Assembly: GCA_017889705.1 (NCBI GenBank)
Contig: JAGGAB010000009.1
Coordinates: 1-64,000 of the forward strand
Length of the DNA stretch: 64,000 bases
Direction: 5' to 3'
Origin: Bacillota bacterium
Lineage (GTDB): Bacteria > Bacillota > Negativicutes > Sporomusales > Sporomusaceae
Positions 8,482 to 18,036 of this stretch are shown here, piece by piece. The translations under genes and the position numbers were made by a program. The notes below the pieces were generated by a model that worked only from the letters and a program-made list of their open reading frames with translations, was not told the DNA's origin and did no database searches. Each line of letters starts with the position of its first letter. The first letter of the stretch is position 1.

Positions 8482-8512
8482 TTGACTTTGAGTTAACTCA
8501 AAGTGGTAACCT
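8482..8512 (+). promoter_or_regulatory. MerR-type promoter 1 (19-bp spacer)
   Basis: -35 TTGACT (8482-8487), 19-bp spacer, -10 TAACCT (8507-8512). The spacer carries the perfect 18-bp palindrome CTTTGAGTTAACTCAAAG (8486-8503). A stretched 19-bp spacer with a central dyad is the hallmark of MerR-activated promoters. The same arrangement precedes the lar operon, the DUF362 gene and the merR gene itself. Confidence 0.8.
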
Positions 8513-8546
8513 ATGATCAAAGGAAAATCCAAAGCCGGGAGGTGGT

Positions 8547-8642
8547 TTGTACATCTTTCCATTGCAACCCAAGTGTCAGGCTGGCCATGCACAATGGTTG
8601 GAGCTTGTTACTGATGATGAATATAACAAACTAAGAAGGTGA
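8547..8642 (+). CDS. Small protein, 31 residues, first gene of a MerR-box bicistron
   Basis: TTG start at 8547 directly after GGGAGGTGG, giving MYIFPLQPKCQAGHAQWLEL and ending in DDEYNKLRR. No family recognised. It could be a short functional peptide or a leader ORF that couples translation to the next gene: its TGA stop overlaps the GTG start of the next frame (GTGA). It begins 34 bases after the -10 of MerR-type promoter 1. A short length and a TTG start keep confidence moderate; the strong ribosome binding site and overlap argue for translation. Confidence 0.5.
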   Translation: MYIFPLQPKCQAGHAQWLELVTDDEYNKLRR

Positions 8643-8803
8643 GTGCACTGAAAAAGGTGGCTGGTATTTTGGCTGTCATGATGGTAGTTAGCGTATTTAG
8701 TTCAATCTTATGGTTGAAATGTTTCGTCTGCAGTAATTATGTGTCTGAGGAGGACTATGGCCGGATGGCAGAAGAGCTGGTAAACCAGTCCGGGCAAAGA
8801 TAA
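8639..8803 (+). CDS. Small single-pass membrane protein, 54 residues
   Basis: GTG 8639 overlaps the stop of the preceding 31-codon frame by 4 bases. The N-terminus is MSALKK then a hydrophobic segment (VAGILAVMMVVSVFSSILW, residues 7-25), followed by KCFVCS with two cysteines and an acidic-amphipathic tail SEEDYGRMAEELVNQS. Expected topology: one membrane helix with a short tail. No known family. Sits behind the MerR-type promoter at 8482, so it is probably induced with the lar, DUF362 and aldo/keto reductase units. Confidence 0.6.
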   Translation: MSALKKVAGILAVMMVVSVFSSILWLKCFVCSNYVSEEDYGRMAEELVNQSGQR

Positions 8804-9027
8804 GTGTTTGCGGATAAAGTTAAAGCAAAAGGAGAGATTCTGGTGCAAAGAACGAAACAATGATATACTCTTTCCATAATTATAAAAATTAAGATAAGAA
8901 GTAATGCTTGAAGTTGCGTAAATGGAAACGGTTTAAATCTGAAAATGAGCATGCTATATTATTACAATAAAGTAAAAAGAGGAACTGGGATTTTGGAAAG
9001 ACTGAAATCATGGACAAGGTGATAGGA

Positions 9028-10275
9028 ATGAAGAAATATATCTTGGGTTTTATACTTATTTGCAGCATAATTACGAGCTATTTCTTATTTGTGCCTAAGT
9101 CGGTGCATACCGGTTATGATACTGATGTAGGGCAGATTATGCATGTAGTTACAGCAGATATGAAACATGAACGCACGATTTCATGGAAGACAAAAAAAAT
9201 GGGTGAACCAGGATATCTGGAAATACGGCCTAAGCAATCTAATAATATTTCCAGAATTGATGCTGAAGCGGTAGAGCTGCCTTCCCCTAATGGCAATCAA
9301 TATGCGCTGTATACAGTGCATATTAGCCATCTTACAGCCGGCGCTGACTATGAATATCGTATATCTGTCGGCAAACGTCAGTCCGCATGGAAAAATTTTA
9401 GGACAGAATCGGAGTCGACAGCATTTAAGGCCATTGTTTTTGGTGATTCACAGGCAGTAGATTATGCAGTTTGGGCAAAAACAGCGAAGGCTGCATGGGG
9501 AAATTATGGAGATGCGGCATTTTTCATTAATATGGGTGATCTTGTTGACAATGGGCAAGATGATTCCCAGTGGAATGCTTGGGTTGATGGAGCGGCAAGT
9601 CTGTTAGCAGCGATACCTATAGCGCCGGTCATGGGAAATCATGAAGCCTATAGTCTTGACTGGAAGATGGCGAAGCCTGATTATTATCTCTCACTTTTTG
9701 CCTTGCCGGAAAATGGTCCGGCAGGCCTAAAACGACATGCGTATTCCTTTGATTATGGCGATGTGCACTTTAGTGTACTTAATACACAGCAAAATGAGCT
9801 AGGTGAGTGGTATCCTGATTTATTAGAGCAACAGAAAGAGTGGCTTGAAAAAGATCTTGCCGGTTCCAAGAAAAAATGGAAGGTAGTTCTCATGCATCGT
9901 GGTGTATGGAAAAATCCATTTAATGGGCCGTTGGATGGGATTGGGCAAACCTTTGTGCCAGTGTTTGATAAATATCATGTTGACCTTGTATTTACTGCAC
10001 ATGTGCATTCGTACGCACGCACGAAGGCTTTAAAAAATGGCAGTCCTGATCCAGACGGTACTATCTATATTACGACAGGACGCAGTGGTGAGAAGGTATG
10101 GGATAAATCCCCACGAAAACCGACGGATGAGTTTTATTATAATCCTCTTGATATGCCGAATTACCTTTTGCTGGAGGCAGATTCAAGTTCGCTTAAAGTT
10201 GCTGCTTTTAAACAGAACGGTGAGCTTTTTGATCAAACAGAGATAAAGAAAACACGGCTTGCGCCGAACTTTTAG
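9028..10275 (+). CDS. Exported metallophosphoesterase, purple acid phosphatase-like
   Basis: About 415 residues; ATG 9028 follows AAGGTGATAGG and gives the signal-anchor MKKYILGFILICSIITSYFLF (an alternative ATG is at 9010). After it comes a fibronectin-like N-terminal domain (about 30-130; VHISHLTAGADYEYRISVG), then the calcineurin-type phosphoesterase domain with metal motifs FGDSQ, NMGDLVDNG, MGNHEAY, VLMHRG and FTAHVHSYART. It would hydrolyse phosphate esters outside the cytoplasm. The last codons (KKTRLAPNF) lie inside the 100-bp repeat B, so the C-terminus may have been replaced or extended by insertion of that repeat. Confidence 0.87.
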   Translation: MKKYILGFILICSIITSYFLFVPKSVHTGYDTDVGQIMHVVTADMKHERTISWKTKKMGEPGYLEIRPKQSNNISRIDAEAVELPSPNGNQYALYTVHISHLTAGADYEYRISVGKRQSAWKNFRTESESTAFKAIVFGDSQAVDYAVWAKTAKAAWGNYGDAAFFINMGDLVDNGQDDSQWNAWVDGAASLLAAIPIAPVMGNHEAYSLDWKMAKPDYYLSLFALPENGPAGLKRHAYSFDYGDVHFSVLNTQQNELGEWYPDLLEQQKEWLEKDLAGSKKKWKVVLMHRGVWKNPFNGPLDGIGQTFVPVFDKYHVDLVFTAHVHSYARTKALKNGSPDPDGTIYITTGRSGEKVWDKSPRKPTDEFYYNPLDMPNYLLLEADSSSLKVAAFKQNGELFDQTEIKKTRLAPNF

Positions 10276-10342
10276 GATAAGCGGAAGCCGATGTTGCACT
10301 TAGCCTGTTTTTAAGGATGTTATACTTTCTGGTAGGATAAAA
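10244..10342 (+). repeat. Repeat B, left copy (inverted pair flanking the lar operon)
   Basis: About 99 bases from AAAGAAAACACGGCTTGCGC to TTATACTTTCTGG, matching in inverted orientation 13877-13976 with roughly 80 percent identity by eye. It contains an imperfect stem-loop (GGCTT...AAGCC). Its first 30 bases are the end of the phosphoesterase coding sequence. Confidence 0.75.
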
Positions 10343-10366
10343 AATAGGAAAACCTATTATTTAAAA

Positions 10367-10400
10367 TGCCTCCTTCACACATGAAGGGGGCAAACTTTTT
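10367..10400 (+). terminator. Terminator before the lar operon
   Basis: Stem TGCCTCCTTCA / TGAAGGGGGCA with a tiny loop, then AAACTTTTTG. Ends phosphoesterase transcription before the MerR-type promoter of the lar operon. Confidence 0.8.
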
Positions 10401-10453
10401 GTTTTAATAAGTTCATTCGTGAGTGGCGCTAAACTGGAATCACAAAAAAACAC

Positions 10454-10484
10454 TTGACTTAGAGTTAGCTTCAAGTGGTAGACT
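10454..10484 (+). promoter_or_regulatory. MerR-type promoter 2, lar operon
   Basis: -35 TTGACT (10454-10459), 19-bp spacer, -10 TAGACT (10479-10484). The spacer dyad (TAGAGTTAGCTTCAAG) is a less perfect version of the one at 8486-8503. larC starts 58 bases downstream of the -10. Confidence 0.78.
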
Positions 10485-10541
10485 AAATTAAAAGCAGGAA
10501 AAATTAACAAAAATAAAAATTATGTAATGGAGCACTTGACA

Positions 10542-11363
10542 ATGAAAGTATTATATTATGATTGTTTTTGCGGTATCAGCGGTGATATGAATCTAGGCGC
10601 ATTGCTCGATTTGGGCGTAGATGAGGATTATGTAAGGCAAGAGTTATCCAAACTCAAGCTAGATGCTGAATACGCGCTGCAGGTAAAAAAGGATAATAAA
10701 AAAGGAATAAGCGGAACCCGGGTGGATGTAGTCTTACATATTGCAACCCATATTCACAATCATCATCACCACCACCATCATCATCATCATCAAGCGCAGA
10801 ACGGTATAGAAGCTGAGCATGGTCATACTCAACATGTTCATAGAAATCTAAAAGATATTGAAAATATAATCATGAACAGCACTTTGAGTGATCAGGTAAA
10901 AAAGCTAAGTTTAGCTATATTTATGAAGGTGGCAGAGGCTGAAGCCAAGGTTCATGGAAAGCCACTGTATGAAGTGCATTTCCATGAGGTGGGGGCTGTT
11001 GACTCGATTGTTGATATTGTGGGAGCGGCAGTTTGCTTGGAATATCTTAAGGTGGATAAAATCATGGCCTCGTCGGTTCAAGTAGGCGGCGGATTTGTCA
11101 AATGCGCTCATGGCATCATTCCTGTGCCGGCGCCGGCAACCGTTGAAATTCTAAAGAATGTTCCCATGAAATCAGGGATAGTGGCTTTTGAAACTACTAC
11201 GCCCACCGGTGCTGCGATACTGGCAGCAAATGTAGGTGAGTTTGCCGATAGTATGGACTTAACAGTAGAAAAGGTTGGCTATGGGATTGGTCATAGAGAA
11301 CTTGATATTCCAAATGTTCTAAGGGTATATCTCGGCTGCGAAAATAAAAGCGATAAAAAATGA
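10542..11363 (+). CDS. larC: LarC N-terminal part: nickel-insertion protein for the nickel-pincer cofactor
   Basis: LarC inserts Ni(II) into the pyridinium bisthiocarboxylate mononucleotide to complete the cofactor of lactate racemase-type enzymes. The protein (273 residues from ATG 10542, GGAG 9 bases upstream) opens with the family signature YYDCFCGISGDMNLGALLDLG, has a His-rich loop with ten consecutive His (about residues 72-81) and then HGHTQHVH, and continues with VHFHEVGAVDSIVDIVGAA and TTPTGAAIL. It stops at the end of the LarC1 region (GYGIGHRELDIPNVLRVYLG). The C-terminal LarC2 domain, made by frameshifting in Lactobacillus, has no counterpart before larE, which starts 15 bases on. 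Confidence 0.9.
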   Translation: MKVLYYDCFCGISGDMNLGALLDLGVDEDYVRQELSKLKLDAEYALQVKKDNKKGISGTRVDVVLHIATHIHNHHHHHHHHHHQAQNGIEAEHGHTQHVHRNLKDIENIIMNSTLSDQVKKLSLAIFMKVAEAEAKVHGKPLYEVHFHEVGAVDSIVDIVGAAVCLEYLKVDKIMASSVQVGGGFVKCAHGIIPVPAPATVEILKNVPMKSGIVAFETTTPTGAAILAANVGEFADSMDLTVEKVGYGIGHRELDIPNVLRVYLGCENKSDKK

Positions 11364-11378
11364 TAGAGGCTGACGATT

Positions 11379-12185
11379 ATGATAAATAATGAAAAATATT
11401 TGAACTTGCTTACTTATTTAAAAAAACTAGAAAGAGTTGTTTTGGCTTTTTCCGGAGGGGTTGACAGTACTTTTTTACTGAAAGCGGCTAAGGAAGCCTT
11501 AGGCGATAACCTTAAAGCCGTAACTATACAATCACCCTATATTCCCAAATGGGAAATAGCAGAGGCCAAAGAATTAGTGGCCAAACTGGGAATAGATTTT
11601 GAAATAGTAGAGGCGCCCATTATTGATGAAATTAGAAATAATCCGGAAAATAGGTGCTATCTTTGCAAAAAAGCGGTGTTTAGTCAGATCAAAGCTATCG
11701 CTGCAAGAGAAGGCTATCGCTATGTGATTGATGGCACCAATTTTGATGATATTGGTGACTATCGACCCGGTTTAGCAGCATTGGAAGAACTCAATATAAA
11801 AAGTCCGTTATTAGAGTGCCGCTTAAAGAAACAGGAAATAAGAGATTTGTCAAAAGAGCTGGGGCTTGCTACTTGGGATAAACCACCCTATGCTTGTTTG
11901 CTGACAAGAATACCTTATGGCAATGAACTAAAAGAAGAAGATTTTATCAAAATAGAAAAAGCAGAAAAGTATATGATGGATATAGGATTTCGGGCAGTTC
12001 GAGTTCGCTGTCACGGCAATCTGGCAAGAATTGAAGTAGATAAAAACGATAAAAGTAGATTGTTTAATGAAGTACTACTTGAGCAAATATCAGCTAAGCT
12101 TAAAGAATTTGGGTTCCAGTATGTAACTTTGGATTTAGAAGGTTACCGGATGGGCAGCTTTAACGAGACGTTAGGCACCAAATAG
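11379..12185 (+). CDS. larE: LarE-type sulfur transferase for the nickel-pincer cofactor
   Basis: 268-residue PP-loop ATPase that adenylates and thiolates the pyridinium dicarboxylate precursor. The PP-loop AFSGGVDSTFLLKAAKE is at residues 23-39. Three cysteines stand in the positions reported for FeS-cluster LarE proteins: the pair in NRCYLCKKAVF and one in KPPYACLLTRIPYG. Only the last corresponds to the sacrificial cysteine of Lactobacillus LarE, so this copy is predicted to be the [4Fe-4S], multi-turnover type (inference from known family subtypes). Second gene of the lar operon. Confidence 0.92.
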   Translation: MINNEKYLNLLTYLKKLERVVLAFSGGVDSTFLLKAAKEALGDNLKAVTIQSPYIPKWEIAEAKELVAKLGIDFEIVEAPIIDEIRNNPENRCYLCKKAVFSQIKAIAAREGYRYVIDGTNFDDIGDYRPGLAALEELNIKSPLLECRLKKQEIRDLSKELGLATWDKPPYACLLTRIPYGNELKEEDFIKIEKAEKYMMDIGFRAVRVRCHGNLARIEVDKNDKSRLFNEVLLEQISAKLKEFGFQYVTLDLEGYRMGSFNETLGTK

Positions 12186-12221
12186 TGCAGCCTATGGCGG
12201 GAGGCATTTCAGGAGGAAACC

Positions 12222-12968
12222 ATGAATAAAGCAGACATAAAACAACTGCTGCAACAAATAAAGGACGATGAAATAGAAGTTGAAGCAGCCGTGAAACTTC
12301 TTGAAGATTTACCTTATAAGGAATTGGGATTTGCCAAAATTGATAATCATCGCGAATTTCGGGTAGGATATCCGGAAGTAATCTATTGTGAAGGAAAAAC
12401 AATAGAACAAGTAAAGGGCATTATTGAATTCATGCTAACTAAGAATAATAACATTTTGGCAACTCGTGCGAATGAAAAGATGTATGAAGCCGTAAAAACA
12501 ATCTGTGCAGAAGCCCAATACAATCCGCTGGGAAGGACAATCACCATCCGCAAACGAGATCAAAAACTCACAGACACATATATTGCCATTGTTTCAGCAG
12601 GAACTTCGGATATGCCGGTGGTGGAGGAAGCAGCAGAAACGGCAATGCTGCTTGGCAATCGCGTGGAAAAAATTATGGATACAGGTGTTGCCGGTATTCA
12701 TCGGCTTTTCTCCAAAATAGATCTCATTCGGGGCGCGAAAGTCGTTATTGTAGTTGCCGGTATGGAAGGAGCACTTGCCAGCGTTATTGGGGGACTTGTG
12801 GACAAGCCGATTATTGCCGTACCGACAAGTGTTGGTTATGGGGCGAACTTTGGTGGGCTTGCGGCGCTGCTGGCCATGCTGAACAGTTGTGCAAGCGGTA
12901 TAAGCGTAGTCAATATCGATAACGGTTTTGGCGCGGCTTACAATGCTAGCATAATTAATAAATTATGA
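12222..12968 (+). CDS. larB: LarB: nicotinate adenine dinucleotide carboxylase/hydrolase
   Basis: 248 residues. LarB carboxylates the pyridinium ring of nicotinic acid adenine dinucleotide and cleaves the phosphoanhydride, the first step of nickel-pincer cofactor synthesis. The C-terminal half has the AIR carboxylase (PurE)-like segment TYIAIVSAGTSDMPVVEEAAETA, then MDTGVAGIHRLF, VVAGMEGALASVIGGL and AVPTSVGYGANFGGLAALLAML, all diagnostic. AGGAGG precedes ATG 12222. The order here is larC-larE-larB; no lactate racemase (LarA) gene is in the window. Confidence 0.94.
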   Translation: MNKADIKQLLQQIKDDEIEVEAAVKLLEDLPYKELGFAKIDNHREFRVGYPEVIYCEGKTIEQVKGIIEFMLTKNNNILATRANEKMYEAVKTICAEAQYNPLGRTITIRKRDQKLTDTYIAIVSAGTSDMPVVEEAAETAMLLGNRVEKIMDTGVAGIHRLFSKIDLIRGAKVVIVVAGMEGALASVIGGLVDKPIIAVPTSVGYGANFGGLAALLAMLNSCASGISVVNIDNGFGAAYNASIINKL

Positions 12969-13807
12969 GCAGGCATAAACAATCAGAGCAACTAAGCATT
13001 ACTGCGGTTTCCTGCCAAGACTGGCCGGTTATCGAAAAAATGTTTGCAGACGCTTTTCAGCATGATATCTATTTTACCCTAATGCAGCGCAGACTGAGGC
13101 TAGCGCAAAAGTTTTCCTGCCTTTCTGCAAAAATGTCTGCATTGCTTGCCGGGAATATCTATTTATTATGGTCAGATAATGAGCCGGCTGGTTTTCTCAT
13201 ACTTAAAAAGCTTGGTGACAAGCAAATGCATTTGCACTATGTAGCGGTTGCGCCGGAATTTCGCCGACAAGGCTTGGGACGGGAACTGACGGTTTTCGCC
13301 ATTAATGCTGCCCGGGAATGCGGCGCCGATATTTTTCTGGAAACCGAAGCAGACAGTCCAGCCATGCAGCTATATAATAGCCTAGGCTTTAGCGTTGATA
13401 ATCAATTTCCGATTTTTAGACTGGTATTACCGGCGGCTCTGCCTAATGAAGCACAAGCAGCTGCCCAACTGATACCGGTTGAAGAAGACAAAGGTATACG
13501 TACGCGGGCTAAAGAATGGCTGTTAGGCTATAAAGCTTCAGTGCTAGCGTGCAACTTACCAGCAGAAATGCCGCTCAGTTTTCATATTTGCCAGCCTGCT
13601 GCGGGGAGCGCTGCAATCATCCACTGCAATCTTCATGGCGCCAGTAATGACTTACTGTATCAAACACTGCCACACTTAGCCTTGCACATGAAAAACTCTG
13701 ATGGCGCTTATTTGGTAGTGAGCGGTGCTGTCGGGGCGGATATAGTTTCAACCTGGCTGGGTAATCGTATTAACTATGTCACCATGACCAGGAAACAACA
13801 GGCTTAA
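12965..13807 (+). CDS. GNAT acetyltransferase domain fused to an unassigned C-terminal domain
   Basis: 280 residues. Residues about 8-150 have GNAT features: the acetyl-CoA loop VAPEFRRQGLGRELTVFAINAA and the family ending AMQLYNSLGFSVDNQFPIFRL. Residues about 160-280 (EWLLGYKASVLACNLPAEMPLS...GAVGADIVSTWLG) match nothing I recognise and are not LarC2. The ATG overlaps the larB stop by 4 bases (ATGA), so it is co-translated with the lar genes. Function in or beside nickel-pincer metabolism is only suggested by that coupling. A terminator follows directly. Confidence 0.75.
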   Translation: MSRHKQSEQLSITAVSCQDWPVIEKMFADAFQHDIYFTLMQRRLRLAQKFSCLSAKMSALLAGNIYLLWSDNEPAGFLILKKLGDKQMHLHYVAVAPEFRRQGLGRELTVFAINAARECGADIFLETEADSPAMQLYNSLGFSVDNQFPIFRLVLPAALPNEAQAAAQLIPVEEDKGIRTRAKEWLLGYKASVLACNLPAEMPLSFHICQPAAGSAAIIHCNLHGASNDLLYQTLPHLALHMKNSDGAYLVVSGAVGADIVSTWLGNRINYVTMTRKQQA

Positions 13808-13832
13808 ACACAGAGTTAAAACGTCAATATAG

Positions 13833-13880
13833 AGTAAGGAACAGGCTCAAATAAAAGTTGAACTTGTTCCTTACTTTTTA
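13833..13880 (+). terminator. Terminator of the lar operon
   Basis: 18-bp stem AGTAAGGAACAGGCTCAA / TTGAACTTGTTCCTTACT with one mismatch and a 7-base loop, followed by TTTTT. Its T-run abuts repeat B, right copy. Confidence 0.85.
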
Positions 13881-13976
13881 CCCTAACAGAAAGTATAACT
13901 TTCTTAAAAACAGGATAAGAGCAACATCGACTTGCGCTTTCGCTAAAAGCTCGGCGCAAGCCGTGTTTTCTTTACG
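13877..13976 (-). repeat. Repeat B, right copy
   Basis: Inverted relative to 10244-10342. On the minus strand it reads GTAAAGAAAACACGGCTTGC..., then a strong stem-loop GCTTGCGC...GCGCAAG, then GATGTTGC, CCTGTTTTTAAG and TTATACTTTCTG. It ends 17 bases before MerR-type promoter 3. Confidence 0.75.
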
Positions 13977-13992
13977 TTAGAAATAAAAATAC

Positions 13993-14023
13993 TTGACTTA
14001 GAGTTAACTCCAGGTGTTAAACT
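13993..14023 (+). promoter_or_regulatory. MerR-type promoter 3, DUF362-polyferredoxin operon
   Basis: -35 TTGACT (13993-13998), 19-bp spacer, -10 TAAACT (14018-14023). The dyad core GAGTTAACTC matches that of promoters 1 and 4. Confidence 0.8.
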
Positions 14024-14089
14024 CAATCTTAGAATGGTAAATAAAAACATATGTATGACAGGTGTAATGGCGGGGAGGAATGATGAATC

Positions 14090-15040
14090 ATGGATCGACG
14101 TCAATTTATCAGCGGGCTTGGTTATGGGCTATTATCGTTAGGATTAGCTGGATGTGGCCTTAATCTTTCCGAAAAAAGTGGTACAGCACAAAATAATAAA
14201 AATACAGCAAACAATCAAGTCGCAGCTTCGGCGGCAAGCAGCTATGACCGCGGCAAACTGATTATAGCGGAAGGAACAGATCCTAATTCACTAATCGAAA
14301 AAGGTTTTGCCGCTCTCGGAGGAATAGGTGCTTTGGTACGGAGCGGGTCTAGCGTTGTAGTAAAACCGAATTTCAGTGTTGCCAGAAAACCTGAAGAGGC
14401 GGCAACAACCAATCCGCAGTTACTCGCTGCGTTGGTAAAACAATGTTTAGCGGCGGGGGCTAAGGAAGTTAAAGTCATTGACTATCCTTTTCAGAGTCCG
14501 GCTGTATGCTTAACAAACAGCGGGATTAAGGACGCCGTGGAAGCTGTAGGGGGAAAAGCGTATGCCATCAATACGCAAAGTTTCTATACCCAGGTTGATA
14601 TTAACGGGAAGATATTAAAGAATGCCTTGTTTTCTAAAGATGTGTTAAATGCTGACGTGTTTATTAACTTTCCTATCCTCAAGCATCACAGTATAACCAA
14701 ACTGACGCTGGGTATGAAAAATATGATGGGGCTGGTATGGGACCGCGGCTACTTCCATAAAACTGACCTGATACAGGGGATTGCTGAACTTGCTGCATTC
14801 CGTAAGCCACAGCTTACTATTGTCGACGCTACAAGAGGTATTATCGATAACGGCCCTACCGGGCCGGGAACCATTCGTGAATGGAATCAGGTAATCTTTG
14901 GTGTTGATCCTGTTGCTGTTGACACATATGCTGCAACATTATTCGGGGTTAAACCGGAAGAAATCGCGTACATAACGGCAGCAGCGCAATTGGGTGTGGG
15001 TGAAATGGATTTGCGAAAACTCACGGTGGTAAAGGTGTAA
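14090..15040 (+). CDS. DUF362 protein, Tat-exported lipoprotein
   Basis: 316 residues. N-terminus MDRRQFISGLGYGLLSLGLA then GC: a twin-arginine signal with a lipobox (Cys 22), so probably a Tat lipoprotein on the outer face of the membrane. The rest is the DUF362 domain (GALVRSGSSVVVKPNFSVAR, VFINFPILKHHSITKLTLGMKNMMG, GVDPVAVDTYAATLFGV). DUF362 proteins are often linked to ferredoxins; their reaction is unknown. GGGGAGG lies 11 bases before the ATG. It is followed after 4 bases by a membrane polyferredoxin gene and shares a MerR-type promoter with the lar operon. Confidence 0.87.
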   Translation: MDRRQFISGLGYGLLSLGLAGCGLNLSEKSGTAQNNKNTANNQVAASAASSYDRGKLIIAEGTDPNSLIEKGFAALGGIGALVRSGSSVVVKPNFSVARKPEEAATTNPQLLAALVKQCLAAGAKEVKVIDYPFQSPAVCLTNSGIKDAVEAVGGKAYAINTQSFYTQVDINGKILKNALFSKDVLNADVFINFPILKHHSITKLTLGMKNMMGLVWDRGYFHKTDLIQGIAELAAFRKPQLTIVDATRGIIDNGPTGPGTIREWNQVIFGVDPVAVDTYAATLFGVKPEEIAYITAAAQLGVGEMDLRKLTVVKV

Positions 15041-15044
15041 TGGA

Positions 15045-16403
15045 ATGAATTTCAAAAAAGTCTCTTGGTTACGACATCTGTTGCAATTTATTTCATTATT
15101 GTCTTTTGTAATATTGCTTGTCAGCATATCCTACCCGCCGGGGGCGGAAAATCAGGTATTGCAATGGTTTTCACGGCTTGACCCTTGGATGCTGCTGAGC
15201 CAGCTCCGCTGGCATCAGGAATTTCCTTCATGGGCATGGCTGCCGCTATTGACCTTGGCAGCAACCGTGATGTGGGGGCGGATATTTTGCGGATGGCTGT
15301 GCCCGTTTGGCGCATTGTTAGCGCTAACAGATAAAATAGGCCGGACAGTTTTAAAAAAGCTACTGCCAACCAAAACCAAAATAGTTTATGCCTTGAAGCC
15401 AATGCGGAATTATTGGTTCCTCATTTTAGTGGTAATATTTATCCTTGGATCAAACTGGGTCTTTTTTTTAACCCCGTTTGCCTTATTTAGCCATGAAATT
15501 GTGAAGATTTTGCAAGGAGATATTCCTTGGATGCTTTGGGGGATACTGACAGGTACCTTGCTTTTTTCCCGACTATGGTGCAGTGTGGTGTGTCCTACCG
15601 GCGTCCTCTTGTCATTAACAGCCCGTTTGCGCCTTTTTCGTTATGAAATTACAGGAAAATGTGTGCAGTGTAAAAAATGTACGCGCATCTGTACTGTTGG
15701 CAGCGCACCGGTAAATACCGGTGTTGCACAGGACGGATGTTTAGCCTGCGGAGACTGCCAAAGGATTTGCCCAACAAAGGCAATCAAATGGCAGCGAAGT
15801 TCTTATTTGGATAAAAATAGTCAGCCAGTTTCCGCTGACGATGTTGCAACAACTAAGCGGCGGGAGTCGCGCAGAAGGTTCTTCAAAGTGGCTTTTGCCG
15901 TTACTATGGCAGGCATTCTATGGAAAAAAACGGTCTGGGCGGCGGAAAAAGTGCTGCGCCCACCGGGAGCCCTGCCGGAACCAGACTTTACTGCCGTTTG
16001 TAACCGGTGCGGCAGGTGTGTGCAGGTATGTCCTGGCAAAGCCTTGCGACCGATGCCTATTACAGATGGTCTCGCTAACTTTGAGACACCTCATATTATT
16101 CCACGGCAAAACCGCTGTGACTTATGTTTGTCCTGTCAAAAAGTATGCCCAACCGGAGCTATTGCCGAAGTCCCACTGGAAAAAATCCAGATGGGCCAAG
16201 CTGTTATTGATAGGCCGAGATGTCTCGCCTGGAATGACGGGAAGATGTGCTATATTTGTGGCGAACAATGTCCTGTACTGGCAATTGTTGCAGATGGACA
16301 ACATCGGCCAGTTGTTTTGGCTGACAAGTGTGTGGGCTGTGGTTCCTGTGAAAATGCATGCCCAGTCGATGGTGAGGCTGCTATTCGTGTTTTTCCTAAT
16401 TAG
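15045..16403 (+). CDS. Membrane polyferredoxin (NapH-like N-terminus, NapG-like C-terminus)
   Basis: 452 residues in two parts. Residues 1-190 have four to five transmembrane helices with the NapH/NosR-type motifs GRIFCGWLCPFGALLALTDK and SRLWCSVVCPTGVLLSL. Then come two ferredoxin-type clusters (CVQCKKCTRIC; CLACGDCQRICPTKAI). A second half starts with a RRESRRRFFKVAFAVTMAG segment that resembles a Tat/anchor sequence and carries four more clusters (CNRCGRCVQVCPGKAL, CDLCLSCQKVCPTGAI, CYICGEQCPVL, CVGCGSCENACPVDGEA). It looks like a NapH-NapG fusion moving electrons between the quinone pool or cytoplasm and the DUF362 partner. Confidence 0.85.
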   Translation: MNFKKVSWLRHLLQFISLLSFVILLVSISYPPGAENQVLQWFSRLDPWMLLSQLRWHQEFPSWAWLPLLTLAATVMWGRIFCGWLCPFGALLALTDKIGRTVLKKLLPTKTKIVYALKPMRNYWFLILVVIFILGSNWVFFLTPFALFSHEIVKILQGDIPWMLWGILTGTLLFSRLWCSVVCPTGVLLSLTARLRLFRYEITGKCVQCKKCTRICTVGSAPVNTGVAQDGCLACGDCQRICPTKAIKWQRSSYLDKNSQPVSADDVATTKRRESRRRFFKVAFAVTMAGILWKKTVWAAEKVLRPPGALPEPDFTAVCNRCGRCVQVCPGKALRPMPITDGLANFETPHIIPRQNRCDLCLSCQKVCPTGAIAEVPLEKIQMGQAVIDRPRCLAWNDGKMCYICGEQCPVLAIVADGQHRPVVLADKCVGCGSCENACPVDGEAAIRVFPN

Positions 16404-16461
16404 CCATTCTCTACCTGCAGCTCATTAGTTTCAGTAACCGCAAATGTATAGCAAAAAATAC

Positions 16462-16492
16462 TTGACTTAGAGTTAACTCCAGGTGGTAAGCT
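16462..16492 (+). promoter_or_regulatory. MerR-type promoter 4, merR-aldo/keto reductase operon
   Basis: -35 TTGACT (16462-16467), 19-bp spacer, -10 TAAGCT (16487-16492), dyad core GAGTTAACTC. The MerR start codon is 21 bases after the -10. Position in front of the regulator gene suggests autoregulation and makes this protein the likely reader of all four sites. Confidence 0.85.
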
Positions 16493-16512: not shown

Positions 16513-16899
16513 ATGACGATTACAGAAGTAAGTGGAAAATTTGATCTTCCTCAGGATACACTCCGTTATTATGAACGCATTGGCCTGATTCCACGCGTGA
16601 ACCGCAATAAAAGCGGCATTAGAGATTATAAAGAAGAAGACTGTAGGTGGGTCGAATTTATCAAGTGTATGCGCGGCGCAGGTCTGCCGATTGAAGTATT
16701 GATTGAATATGTTGGGTTGTTTCAGCAGGGCGAAGAGACGGCTGCGACCAGAAAAGAGCTTTTAATTGAACAGCGCCGTCAGCTTATAATAAGAATGGAA
16801 GATATGAAGAAAACGTTGGAACGCCTGGATTATAAAATTGCAAGATATGAACAGGCCGTAGTCAAAAATGAGAAAAAATTAAGAAGATCCGAAGAGTAA
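16513..16899 (+). CDS. MerR-family regulator, AdhR-like
   Basis: 128 residues: winged-helix N-terminus (VSGKFDLPQDTLRYYERIGL, then RNKSGIRDYKEEDCRWVEFI) and a C-terminal coiled coil. The sequence KCMRGAGLPIEVLIEYVGLF and GIRDY are those of Bacillus AdhR/YraB, a MerR protein that senses aldehydes (methylglyoxal, formaldehyde) through the conserved Cys52; here a Cys falls at position 52 (KCMR), with another at 44. No metal-site cysteines of the MerR/ZntR type are present. Directly followed by an aldo/keto reductase gene, as expected for an aldehyde-stress unit. Confidence 0.9.
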   Translation: MTITEVSGKFDLPQDTLRYYERIGLIPRVNRNKSGIRDYKEEDCRWVEFIKCMRGAGLPIEVLIEYVGLFQQGEETAATRKELLIEQRRQLIIRMEDMKKTLERLDYKIARYEQAVVKNEKKLRRSEE

Positions 16900-16914
16900 A
16901 TGGAGGCTAAGACT

Positions 16915-18036
16915 ATGGAATATAAAAAATTGGGCTTTGGATTCATGCGGTTACCGGTAATCAACCAGGATGATCCAACAAGTATTGATATAAACACTGT
17001 AAATCAAATGGTAGATACCTTTTTGGAAAGGGGCTTTACCTATTTTGATACCGCTTATATGTACCACGCGTATAAGAGTGAGATAGCAATCAGAGAGTCA
17101 TTAGTAAAACGTCATAAAAGAGATAGCTTTACGTTAGCAACAAAACTGCCAACGATGTTTTTGAAGACAAAAGAAGATCAGGAGAGAATCTTTAATGAGC
17201 AGTTGGAAAAATGCGGAGTGGAGTACTTTGATTACTATCTGCTGCATAATCTGGGTGTAGAGAATTACGCAACTGCCCAAAGACTGGATAGTTTTGGTTT
17301 TATCCAGCAAAAACAAAAAGAAGGGAAAATCAGAAAAATAGGATTTTCTTACCATGATAATGCGGATTTGTTGGATGAAATCCTGACAGCGCATCCAGAA
17401 GTAGAATTTGTCCAGTTGCAAATTAATTATCTGGATTGGGACAATGACAGCATTCAGTCCAGAAAATGCTATGAAGTGGCAAGAAAACATAATAAGCCGG
17501 TTATGGTTATGGAGCCGGTAAAAGGCGGCATACTTGCGGCAGTACCTGAAAAAGTAGAAAAATTATTTAAAGACTATCATCCGGATCTGTCCATTCCCTC
17601 CTGGGCCATCCGTTATGTAGCAAGCCAAGAGGGCGTTATGATGGTATTAAGCGGGATGTCTGACCTGGCGCAACTCCAGGATAATACAAGCTATATGCAG
17701 GAATTTAAGCCTTTTGTACCAGCAGAATATGACATTATAAAAAAAGCTGTTGAGATTATTAATGAAGCAATTGCTATTCCCTGTACAGCCTGTCAATATT
17801 GTGTAGAAGAGTGCCCACAGAATATAGCCATACCCAAATATTTCGCACTATACAACTCAGAAAAGCAGGCGATAGGCAATGGCCCTTCTATCCCCAGAGT
17901 ATATTACGGTAACTATACGAAAACATATGGCAAGGCATCAGACTGTATTGAATGTAAGCAGTGTGAAAATCATTGCCCGCAGCATATTGAGATTACAGAA
18001 TGCTTAAAAGATGTAGCGGCAGTTTTTGAGGCATAA
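16915..18036 (+). CDS. Aldo/keto reductase with C-terminal ferredoxin domain
   Basis: 373 residues from ATG 16915 (GGAGG 8 bases upstream; an in-frame ATG at 16900 is too close to the MerR stop to have its own site). The AKR barrel shows [16 protein letters not shown] with the catalytic Tyr, [18 protein letters not shown] and [14 protein letters not shown]. The C-terminus has two FeS motifs, [18 protein letters not shown] and [17 protein letters not shown]. This class reduces aldehydes or quinone-like carbonyls with NAD(P)H or possibly ferredoxin electrons. Regulated by the adjacent AdhR-like MerR protein. Confidence 0.9.

Follow-up and report, generated by a model that had tools for sequence, protein, structure and literature searches.

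Between positions 8482 and 18036 of the DNA stretch analysed here (the window: 64,000 nucleotides of contig JAGGAB010000009.1, assembly GCA_017889705.1, a Sporomusa genome of 5.0 Mb in 154 contigs), four promoter sites head, in turn, a cupin remnant with a gene for a small membrane protein, the genes larC, larE and larB for production of the nickel-pincer nucleotide (NPN), a pair of genes for a DUF362 protein and a membrane polyferredoxin, and the genes for a MerR regulator and an aldo/keto reductase (AKR), as summarized in Table 1. The subject of this report is the regulon that these four units would form, together with the proteins for which its NPN may be made. An earlier note on this DNA had placed promoters composed of TTGACT, a 19-bp spacer and TANNCT at 8482, 10454, 13993 and 16462, and all four were found there with exactly these elements.

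Table 1. Features of the four site-headed units, grouped by unit. Site scores refer to the position weight matrix (PWM) described in the text. ORF, open reading frame; aa, amino acids.
Feature	Position	Strand	Basis and remarks
Site/promoter 1	8482..8512	+	TTGACT-TTGAGTTAACTCAAAGTGG-TAACCT; perfect GAGTTAACTC dyad; PWM 43.1
31-aa ORF, C-terminal remnant of regulon cupin	8547..8642	+	TTG start; matches cupin C-termini
54-aa small membrane protein, CxxC	8639..8803	+	GTG start; conserved in Sporomusa
Site/promoter 2, upstream of larC	10454..10484	+	-10 TAGACT; PWM 40.4
larC, LarC1 half only, His-rich loop	10527..11363	+	PF01969 positions 1-239 of 375; TIGR00299, 229.3 bits
larE	11379..12185	+	TIGR00268, 332.5 bits; CxxC (C93, C96)
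larB	12222..12968	+	NF033503, 301.4 bits
GNAT acetyltransferase, C-terminal region without assignment	12965..13807	+	Start overlaps larB stop
Site/promoter 3, upstream of DUF362	13993..14023	+	-10 TAAACT; PWM 43.3
DUF362 protein (DUF362w)	14090..15040	+	DUF362 domain; twin-arginine, lipobox-like N-terminus (by eye); H200, K210, H223
Membrane polyferredoxin	15045..16403	+	NapH-like half and NapG-like half, both under family cut-offs
Site/promoter 4, upstream of merR	16462..16492	+	-10 TAAGCT; PWM 46.3
NmlR/AdhR-like MerR regulator, Cys52	16513..16899	+	Family models, motif
AKR, C-terminal 4Fe-4S dicluster domain	16900..18036	+	Domain models

The dyad in the spacer is imperfect at site 2 (GAGTTAGCTT), and it is present in the 19-bp spacer of the promoter of merR itself, from which the ATG of that gene (16513) is separated by 20 bases. 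When the source genome was scanned with a 32-base pattern derived from the four window sites, allowing up to three mismatches, eight matches were obtained, compared with none for the same pattern read backwards. A slightly looser pattern gave 11 matches in the source genome and 62 sites across eight of the nine genomes of the genus, the source included, with none for the reversed pattern in either case. From ten source-genome sites, including the four of the window, which thus match it by construction, we made a PWM that at more than 12 bits found in the window only these four sites and the mirror of site 1 (12.7 bits), and nothing in the reversed window. Applied to the first 40 of the 80 larC loci described below, it gave 66 matches above 24 bits, compared with none when that DNA was reversed. 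Five further sites of the source genome lie in a cluster on contig C39, together with genes for a MerR paralogue, two DUF362 proteins, an AKR of the 4Fe-4S and twin-arginine translocation (Tat) type, flavodoxins, a cupin, a cyclophilin-like lipoprotein and a dienelactone-hydrolase-like protein, and a further AKR with a site is found on contig C110. Genes for AKR, MerR, flavodoxin, cupin, nitroreductase and DUF362 proteins also recurred in site-headed units across the genus, as annotated in the stretches around every site apart from the one site of genome G010.

The regulator encoded behind site 4 has the Cys52 that the earlier note had assigned to it, within FIKC52MR. Its top NCBIfam model is NmlR, with 139.4 bits against 48.3 for the runner-up, a score below the model cut-off of 175. 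Of 27 distinct MerR rows, 22 have Cys52, or 24 of 29 when two duplicates are counted, and those of the window and of the C39 paralogue are among them. In AdhR and NmlR the conserved cysteine is needed for the response to formaldehyde (PMC4776306). Because NmlR is by far the best model and because of this cysteine-dependent response of its relatives, control by stress is plausible for the window. The regulons known for NmlR and AdhR (YraB) in Bacillus subtilis, Haemophilus and Neisseria likewise combine a MerR protein having a conserved Cys (Cys52 in AdhR) with a few genes for reduction or detoxification; those named in the passages concerned are adhA/adhC, estD, yraC and yraA, with no lar or DUF362 gene among them (PMC4776306). 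The four-unit regulon of the earlier note, linking lar, DUF362-polyferredoxin, MerR and AKR genes, is supported as one operator family, and the linkage was seen again in further Sporomusa and in Clostridium, while its sensing of electrophiles is a plausible assignment from the protein family only. A second MerR paralogue, which that note had held out as a possible owner of the sites, does exist, as the NmlR-like protein on C39 with 53% identity to the window MerR, and either of the two may own the window sites. A third relative, on contig C152 (L041:5177-5628), has Arg at the position of Cys52 and faces a short-chain dehydrogenase-like gene, with a divergent site of 24.8 bits.

We found that the linkage of such sites to lar genes extends beyond the source genome. 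In a sample of larC loci from named genomes, made up of the best 80 of 84 relatives, the directon that runs into larC contained a site scoring above 22 bits on its own strand at 23 loci, Clostridium included. Three Sporomusa genomes carry DUF362 and lar genes in a single operon, all on one strand. That of S. silvacetica (L067) reads site-DUF362w-polyferredoxin-larC-larE-larB-DUF362t, and that of Sporomusa KB1 (L069) reads site-DUF362w-polyferredoxin-larC-larE. The operon of S. malonica (L068), which was missed by the directon script owing to overlapping gene calls and whose gene order was instead read from the annotation, is site-DUF362t-DUF362w-polyferredoxin-larC-larE, with DUF362t present as two ORF fragments. 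Another type, DUF362F, which has a 2x[4Fe-4S] ferredoxin inserted directly after the equivalent of the nickel-ligand histidine of LarA, was found in two other families, adjoining larC at L180 and in the order site-DUF362F-merR-larB at L183.

The DUF362 proteins also resemble LarA. Both families belong to Pfam clan CL0471 (PMC11770544), with DUF362 standing outside the LarA superfamily (DUF2088) and having a predicted fold and cofactor residues in common with it. The Pfam models of DUF362 and LarA cross-matched in the source genome; at E ≤ 0.001, PF09861 gave a weak match to a DUF362 protein on contig C44, and the window DUF362 was not among its matches. Comparison of a DUF362 profile (19 rows) with a LarA profile (15 rows) gave a probability of 94.5% (E 7.4e-8) and paired H200, K210 and H223 of the window protein with H175, K185 and H201 of source-genome LarA. 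The latter align with H174, K184 and H200 of L. plantarum LarA (chain 5huq), which are the acid/base, the cofactor-binding lysine and the nickel ligand, respectively (PMC11770544). The same pairing was obtained with an eight-row profile of DUF362F and DUF362t (E 3.6e-4, at a probability of only 36.9%), and the LarA spacing H-x9-K-x15-H, together with two ferredoxin motifs, was found in each of 30 DUF362F loci, the source included. No clear counterpart of H108 or R75 was seen in the profile alignments. A sequence search of the PDB with the window DUF362 gave no relative at E ≤ 1, and all PDB structures matched at E ≤ 0.001 by the AlphaFold models were of the LarA family, at 18 of 18 for DUF362w (mean predicted local distance difference test score, pLDDT, 82) and 12 of 12 for DUF362F (mean pLDDT 76), which suggests a shared fold. 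The best structural matches of these predicted models included LarA-like enzymes with only one catalytic histidine (9q3j, 9q3k), which set a precedent for an NPN protein that lacks the customary acid/base pair; these belong to the LarA family proper and miss the H174 equivalent, whereas DUF362 mostly keeps that residue and has no identified equivalent of H108 (PMC12611868). The window DUF362w forms a branch distinct from DUF362F, and the case for it is built on operon sharing, fold prediction and residue alignment. Its partner, the polyferredoxin, is matched by the models of NapH and NapG of the NapGH quinol dehydrogenase, and differs from NapGH in being one fused protein, in scoring under the cut-offs, and in having DUF362 as partner instead of nitrate reductase.

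For analysis of co-occurrence, we used 299 genomes of the phylum that were at least 95% complete, the source included, with cut-offs of E ≤ 1e-25 for DUF362F-like proteins and E ≤ 1e-20 for LarA. LarC was present in 183 of them, any DUF362 in 231, DUF362F-like proteins in 155 and LarA in 152. DUF362F-like proteins and LarC occurred together in 131 genomes, with 24 having only the former, 52 only LarC and 92 neither (odds ratio, OR, 9.7; p 2.5e-18, kinship ignored), compared with an OR of 4.1 for the known pair of LarA and LarC (117 with both, 35 with LarA only, 66 with LarC only and 81 with neither). The association was most pronounced in the 147 genomes without LarA, where LarC accompanied DUF362F in 42 of 48 genomes and was found in 24 of the 99 others (OR 21.9, p 1.5e-13). 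DUF362F was seen in six of the 81 genomes that lack both LarC and LarA, and among the matches listed at 50% identity or more, LarC was present in 45 of 48 genomes, the other three being of one genus. As a separate observation, LarA and DUF362F-like proteins were present in genus g53 (G102, G136, G164, G211 and G292), with no PF01969 LarC found.

Taking these results together, we consider that the window holds part of an NmlR/AdhR-type MerR regulon and that the NPN made by its lar genes is most likely meant for DUF362 proteins, a reading to which we assign a probability of about one half. Under an inducing stress, probably that of reactive electrophiles, a MerR protein, binding the GAGTTAACTC dyad within the 19-bp spacer, would untwist the promoter and turn on three groups of genes, namely reductases such as 4Fe-4S AKRs, flavodoxins, cupins and a nitroreductase; DUF362 proteins, one of them with the NapGH-like membrane polyferredoxin; and larC-larE-larB, producing NPN. 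The cofactor would go to the DUF362 proteins by virtue of the fold and cofactor-contacting residues that they are predicted to share with LarA. Those of the Tat type would be loaded in the cytoplasm and then exported, exchanging electrons through ferredoxin-type partners, and the hydride chemistry of the pincer ring may then serve a net redox reaction, not a racemization.

This proposal bears on a gap noted in the literature, where about 15% of the genomes analysed in one study from 2024 had larB, larC and larE without larA, from which unknown non-LarA NPN proteins were inferred (PMC11796402), and where larBCE of Haloferax were listed for a possible, unnamed nickel-pincer enzyme (PMC8305020). 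In the literature cited here, NPN is described for racemases and epimerases of the LarA type. With somewhat less confidence than we place in the reading of the window, and at slightly below even odds, we suggest that DUF362F, and in Sporomusa also the exported DUF362w and DUF362t, are these missing users, forming a class of net-redox enzymes wired to ferredoxin or quinol carriers and partly controlled by electrophile stress. The regulon, the shared operons and the co-occurrence thereby yield a concrete candidate that is widespread at the counts given above. If the suggestion is true, NPN, so far a cofactor of racemases, becomes a redox cofactor, and a chemistry is gained for a domain whose function is unknown; even if the regulon part alone holds, the synthesis of NPN is under stress control. 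In a full-text search of the open-licence literature, DUF362 was found together with nickel-pincer only as a tree outgroup in work on the LarA superfamily (PMC11770544), and nothing was found for nickel-pincer together with MerR.

Several results weigh against the proposed role of DUF362. The co-occurrence statistics ignore kinship and anaerobic life; the link between DUF362F and LarC was weak in the 152 LarA-positive genomes (OR 3.0, p 0.01); and genomes having only non-F-like DUF362 showed no association with LarC (OR 0.67, p 0.14). LarC was absent from 24 of the 155 genomes with DUF362F-like proteins, an absence that does not exclude use of NPN because 18 of these 24 have LarA. With regard to structure, six DUF362w rows alone gave no match to LarA in the profile comparison, the H174 equivalent is missing from the DUF362w copies closest to larC in L067 and L069, and the structural matches had modest TM-scores (query 0.36-0.52) with large root-mean-square deviations (4-14 Å). 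The H-K-H triad as a mark of NPN use on its own was dropped as not diagnostic, since DUF362 types without LarC association (non-F-like rows L038, L040, L087 and L096) keep the lysine and second histidine. Finally, 25 of the 30 DUF362F loci (L181, L182, L184-L206) had neither a site nor a lar gene within 1.5 kb.

Such findings could also be explained if the ligand of DUF362 is another nucleotide or a different metal centre and the lar genes have some other task in the regulon, for example to rebuild NPN damaged by electrophiles at its sulfur or pyridinium for use by ordinary LarA. In line with this, LarC was missing from 59 of the 231 genomes with DUF362, a strong LarA (E<1e-30) was present in 45 of the 49 genomes having the lar loci, and the source genome itself carries three strong LarA genes, all on contigs other than that of the window, as well as a second larB with a full-length larC on contig C36 (L034:7058-9025), for which no site above 14 bits was found in a 17-kb stretch. 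In three of the four genomes without LarA at that cut-off (G015, G018, G019 and G054), MerR accompanied by AKR or DUF362 is found close to lar, and these missing LarA genes count for little because two of the four are metagenome-assembled genomes (MAGs). We regard this explanation as rather unlikely; DUF362F-like proteins tracked LarC best exactly where LarA was absent, and DUF362 shared one operon with lar genes in the three Sporomusa genomes, both of which speak against it.

The gene neighbourhoods of larC raise another objection to assigning the cofactor to DUF362, because an AKR was found in the larC directon at 21 of the 80 loci, compared with DUF362 at four (L067, L069, L074 and L136, with L068 uncounted). 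AKR is thus the commoner neighbour of larC across species, and within this sample the DUF362-lar operon occurs mainly in Sporomusa. Of the 21 directons, 15 had a site and six did not, one of the latter lying outside Firmicutes (L120). At Clostridium loci of the kind represented by L093, the genes were arranged site-AKR-CbiM-CbiQ-ABC-larC-larE-larB with merR divergent, so that a nickel/cobalt-type energy-coupling factor (ECF) importer lies between AKR and larC, as judged by a Pfam check of the transporter genes at L093 only. The lar genes might serve the 4Fe-4S AKR, a distinct class of which, with a PYHG motif, precedes larC, either by the AKR using NPN itself or by it sharing a substrate with an NPN enzyme. 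This we find less probable than damage repair for LarA, in that both the window AKR and the class adjacent to larC retain Asp, Tyr and Lys, which we take to be the AKR catalytic residues and which make ordinary use of NAD(P)H the simplest assumption. The AKR of L093 has only AKR and Fer4 domains by Pfam, and in the window AKR and larC sit behind different sites. The Tat-type AKR on C39 is without the Tyr and Lys. The subclass with the PYHG motif upstream of larC was seen in Clostridium, Propionispora and a Deferribacterales MAG (L072, L075, L078, L093, L120 and others).

The earlier note had instead proposed that detoxification of methylglyoxal yields D-lactate, for which NPN would be made to supply lactate racemase. 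Relatives in the NmlR/AdhR family do respond to methylglyoxal or formaldehyde (PMC4776306) and the source genome has LarA genes, as mentioned. In 33 larA loci (30 relatives taken from a longer match list and the three of the source genome), not one had a site above 20 bits, and we therefore rejected LarA as a regulon member for these loci. A search with the three source-genome LarA proteins as queries (phmmer, 1e-8) likewise identified no LarA among the ORFs at the 80 larC loci. Downstream of the 11 source-genome sites no glyoxalase was noticed, in a survey that included no family-level search and in which several downstream ORFs were unnamed. With larA of the source genome also residing on other contigs, the proposal was not supported and we consider it highly improbable.

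With regard to the lar genes themselves, the products LarB, LarC and LarE of the window, all scoring above their NCBIfam cut-offs, are those of known lar operons, from which the window unit differs in having no larA and in a larC comprising only the LarC1 half; the LarC2 half was not found in the window larC unit. The LarC encoded in the regulon operon of S. silvacetica is longer, at 444 aa. LarE has three further Cys residues (147, 173 and 211) besides C93 and C96, and any one of these three could be the last Cys of the CxxC-C motif that has been reported in [4Fe-4S] LarE. A relative of the GNAT acetyltransferase gene that follows larB was also seen after larB in S. acidovorans (L073:10118).

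Downstream of site 1 there is no intact enzyme gene, with the cupin remnant instead being followed by the gene for the 54-aa membrane protein. The remnant matched C-termini of cupins at L073/L238 (62.5% over 24 aa) and at L009, L252 and L244 (56% over 25 aa), and others more weakly. It is unlikely that site 1 is the promoter of a metallophosphatase gene at 9010, as about 500 bases, the remnant and the conserved small ORF intervene. Relatives of the 54-aa protein were found in genome G003 at 78% (L073/L238) and at 81% over 48 aa (L237), each adjoining a site, in G006 at 41% (L246) with no site seen beside it, and in G007 at 53% (L250), adjoining a site. This CxxC protein is small enough to be easily overlooked.

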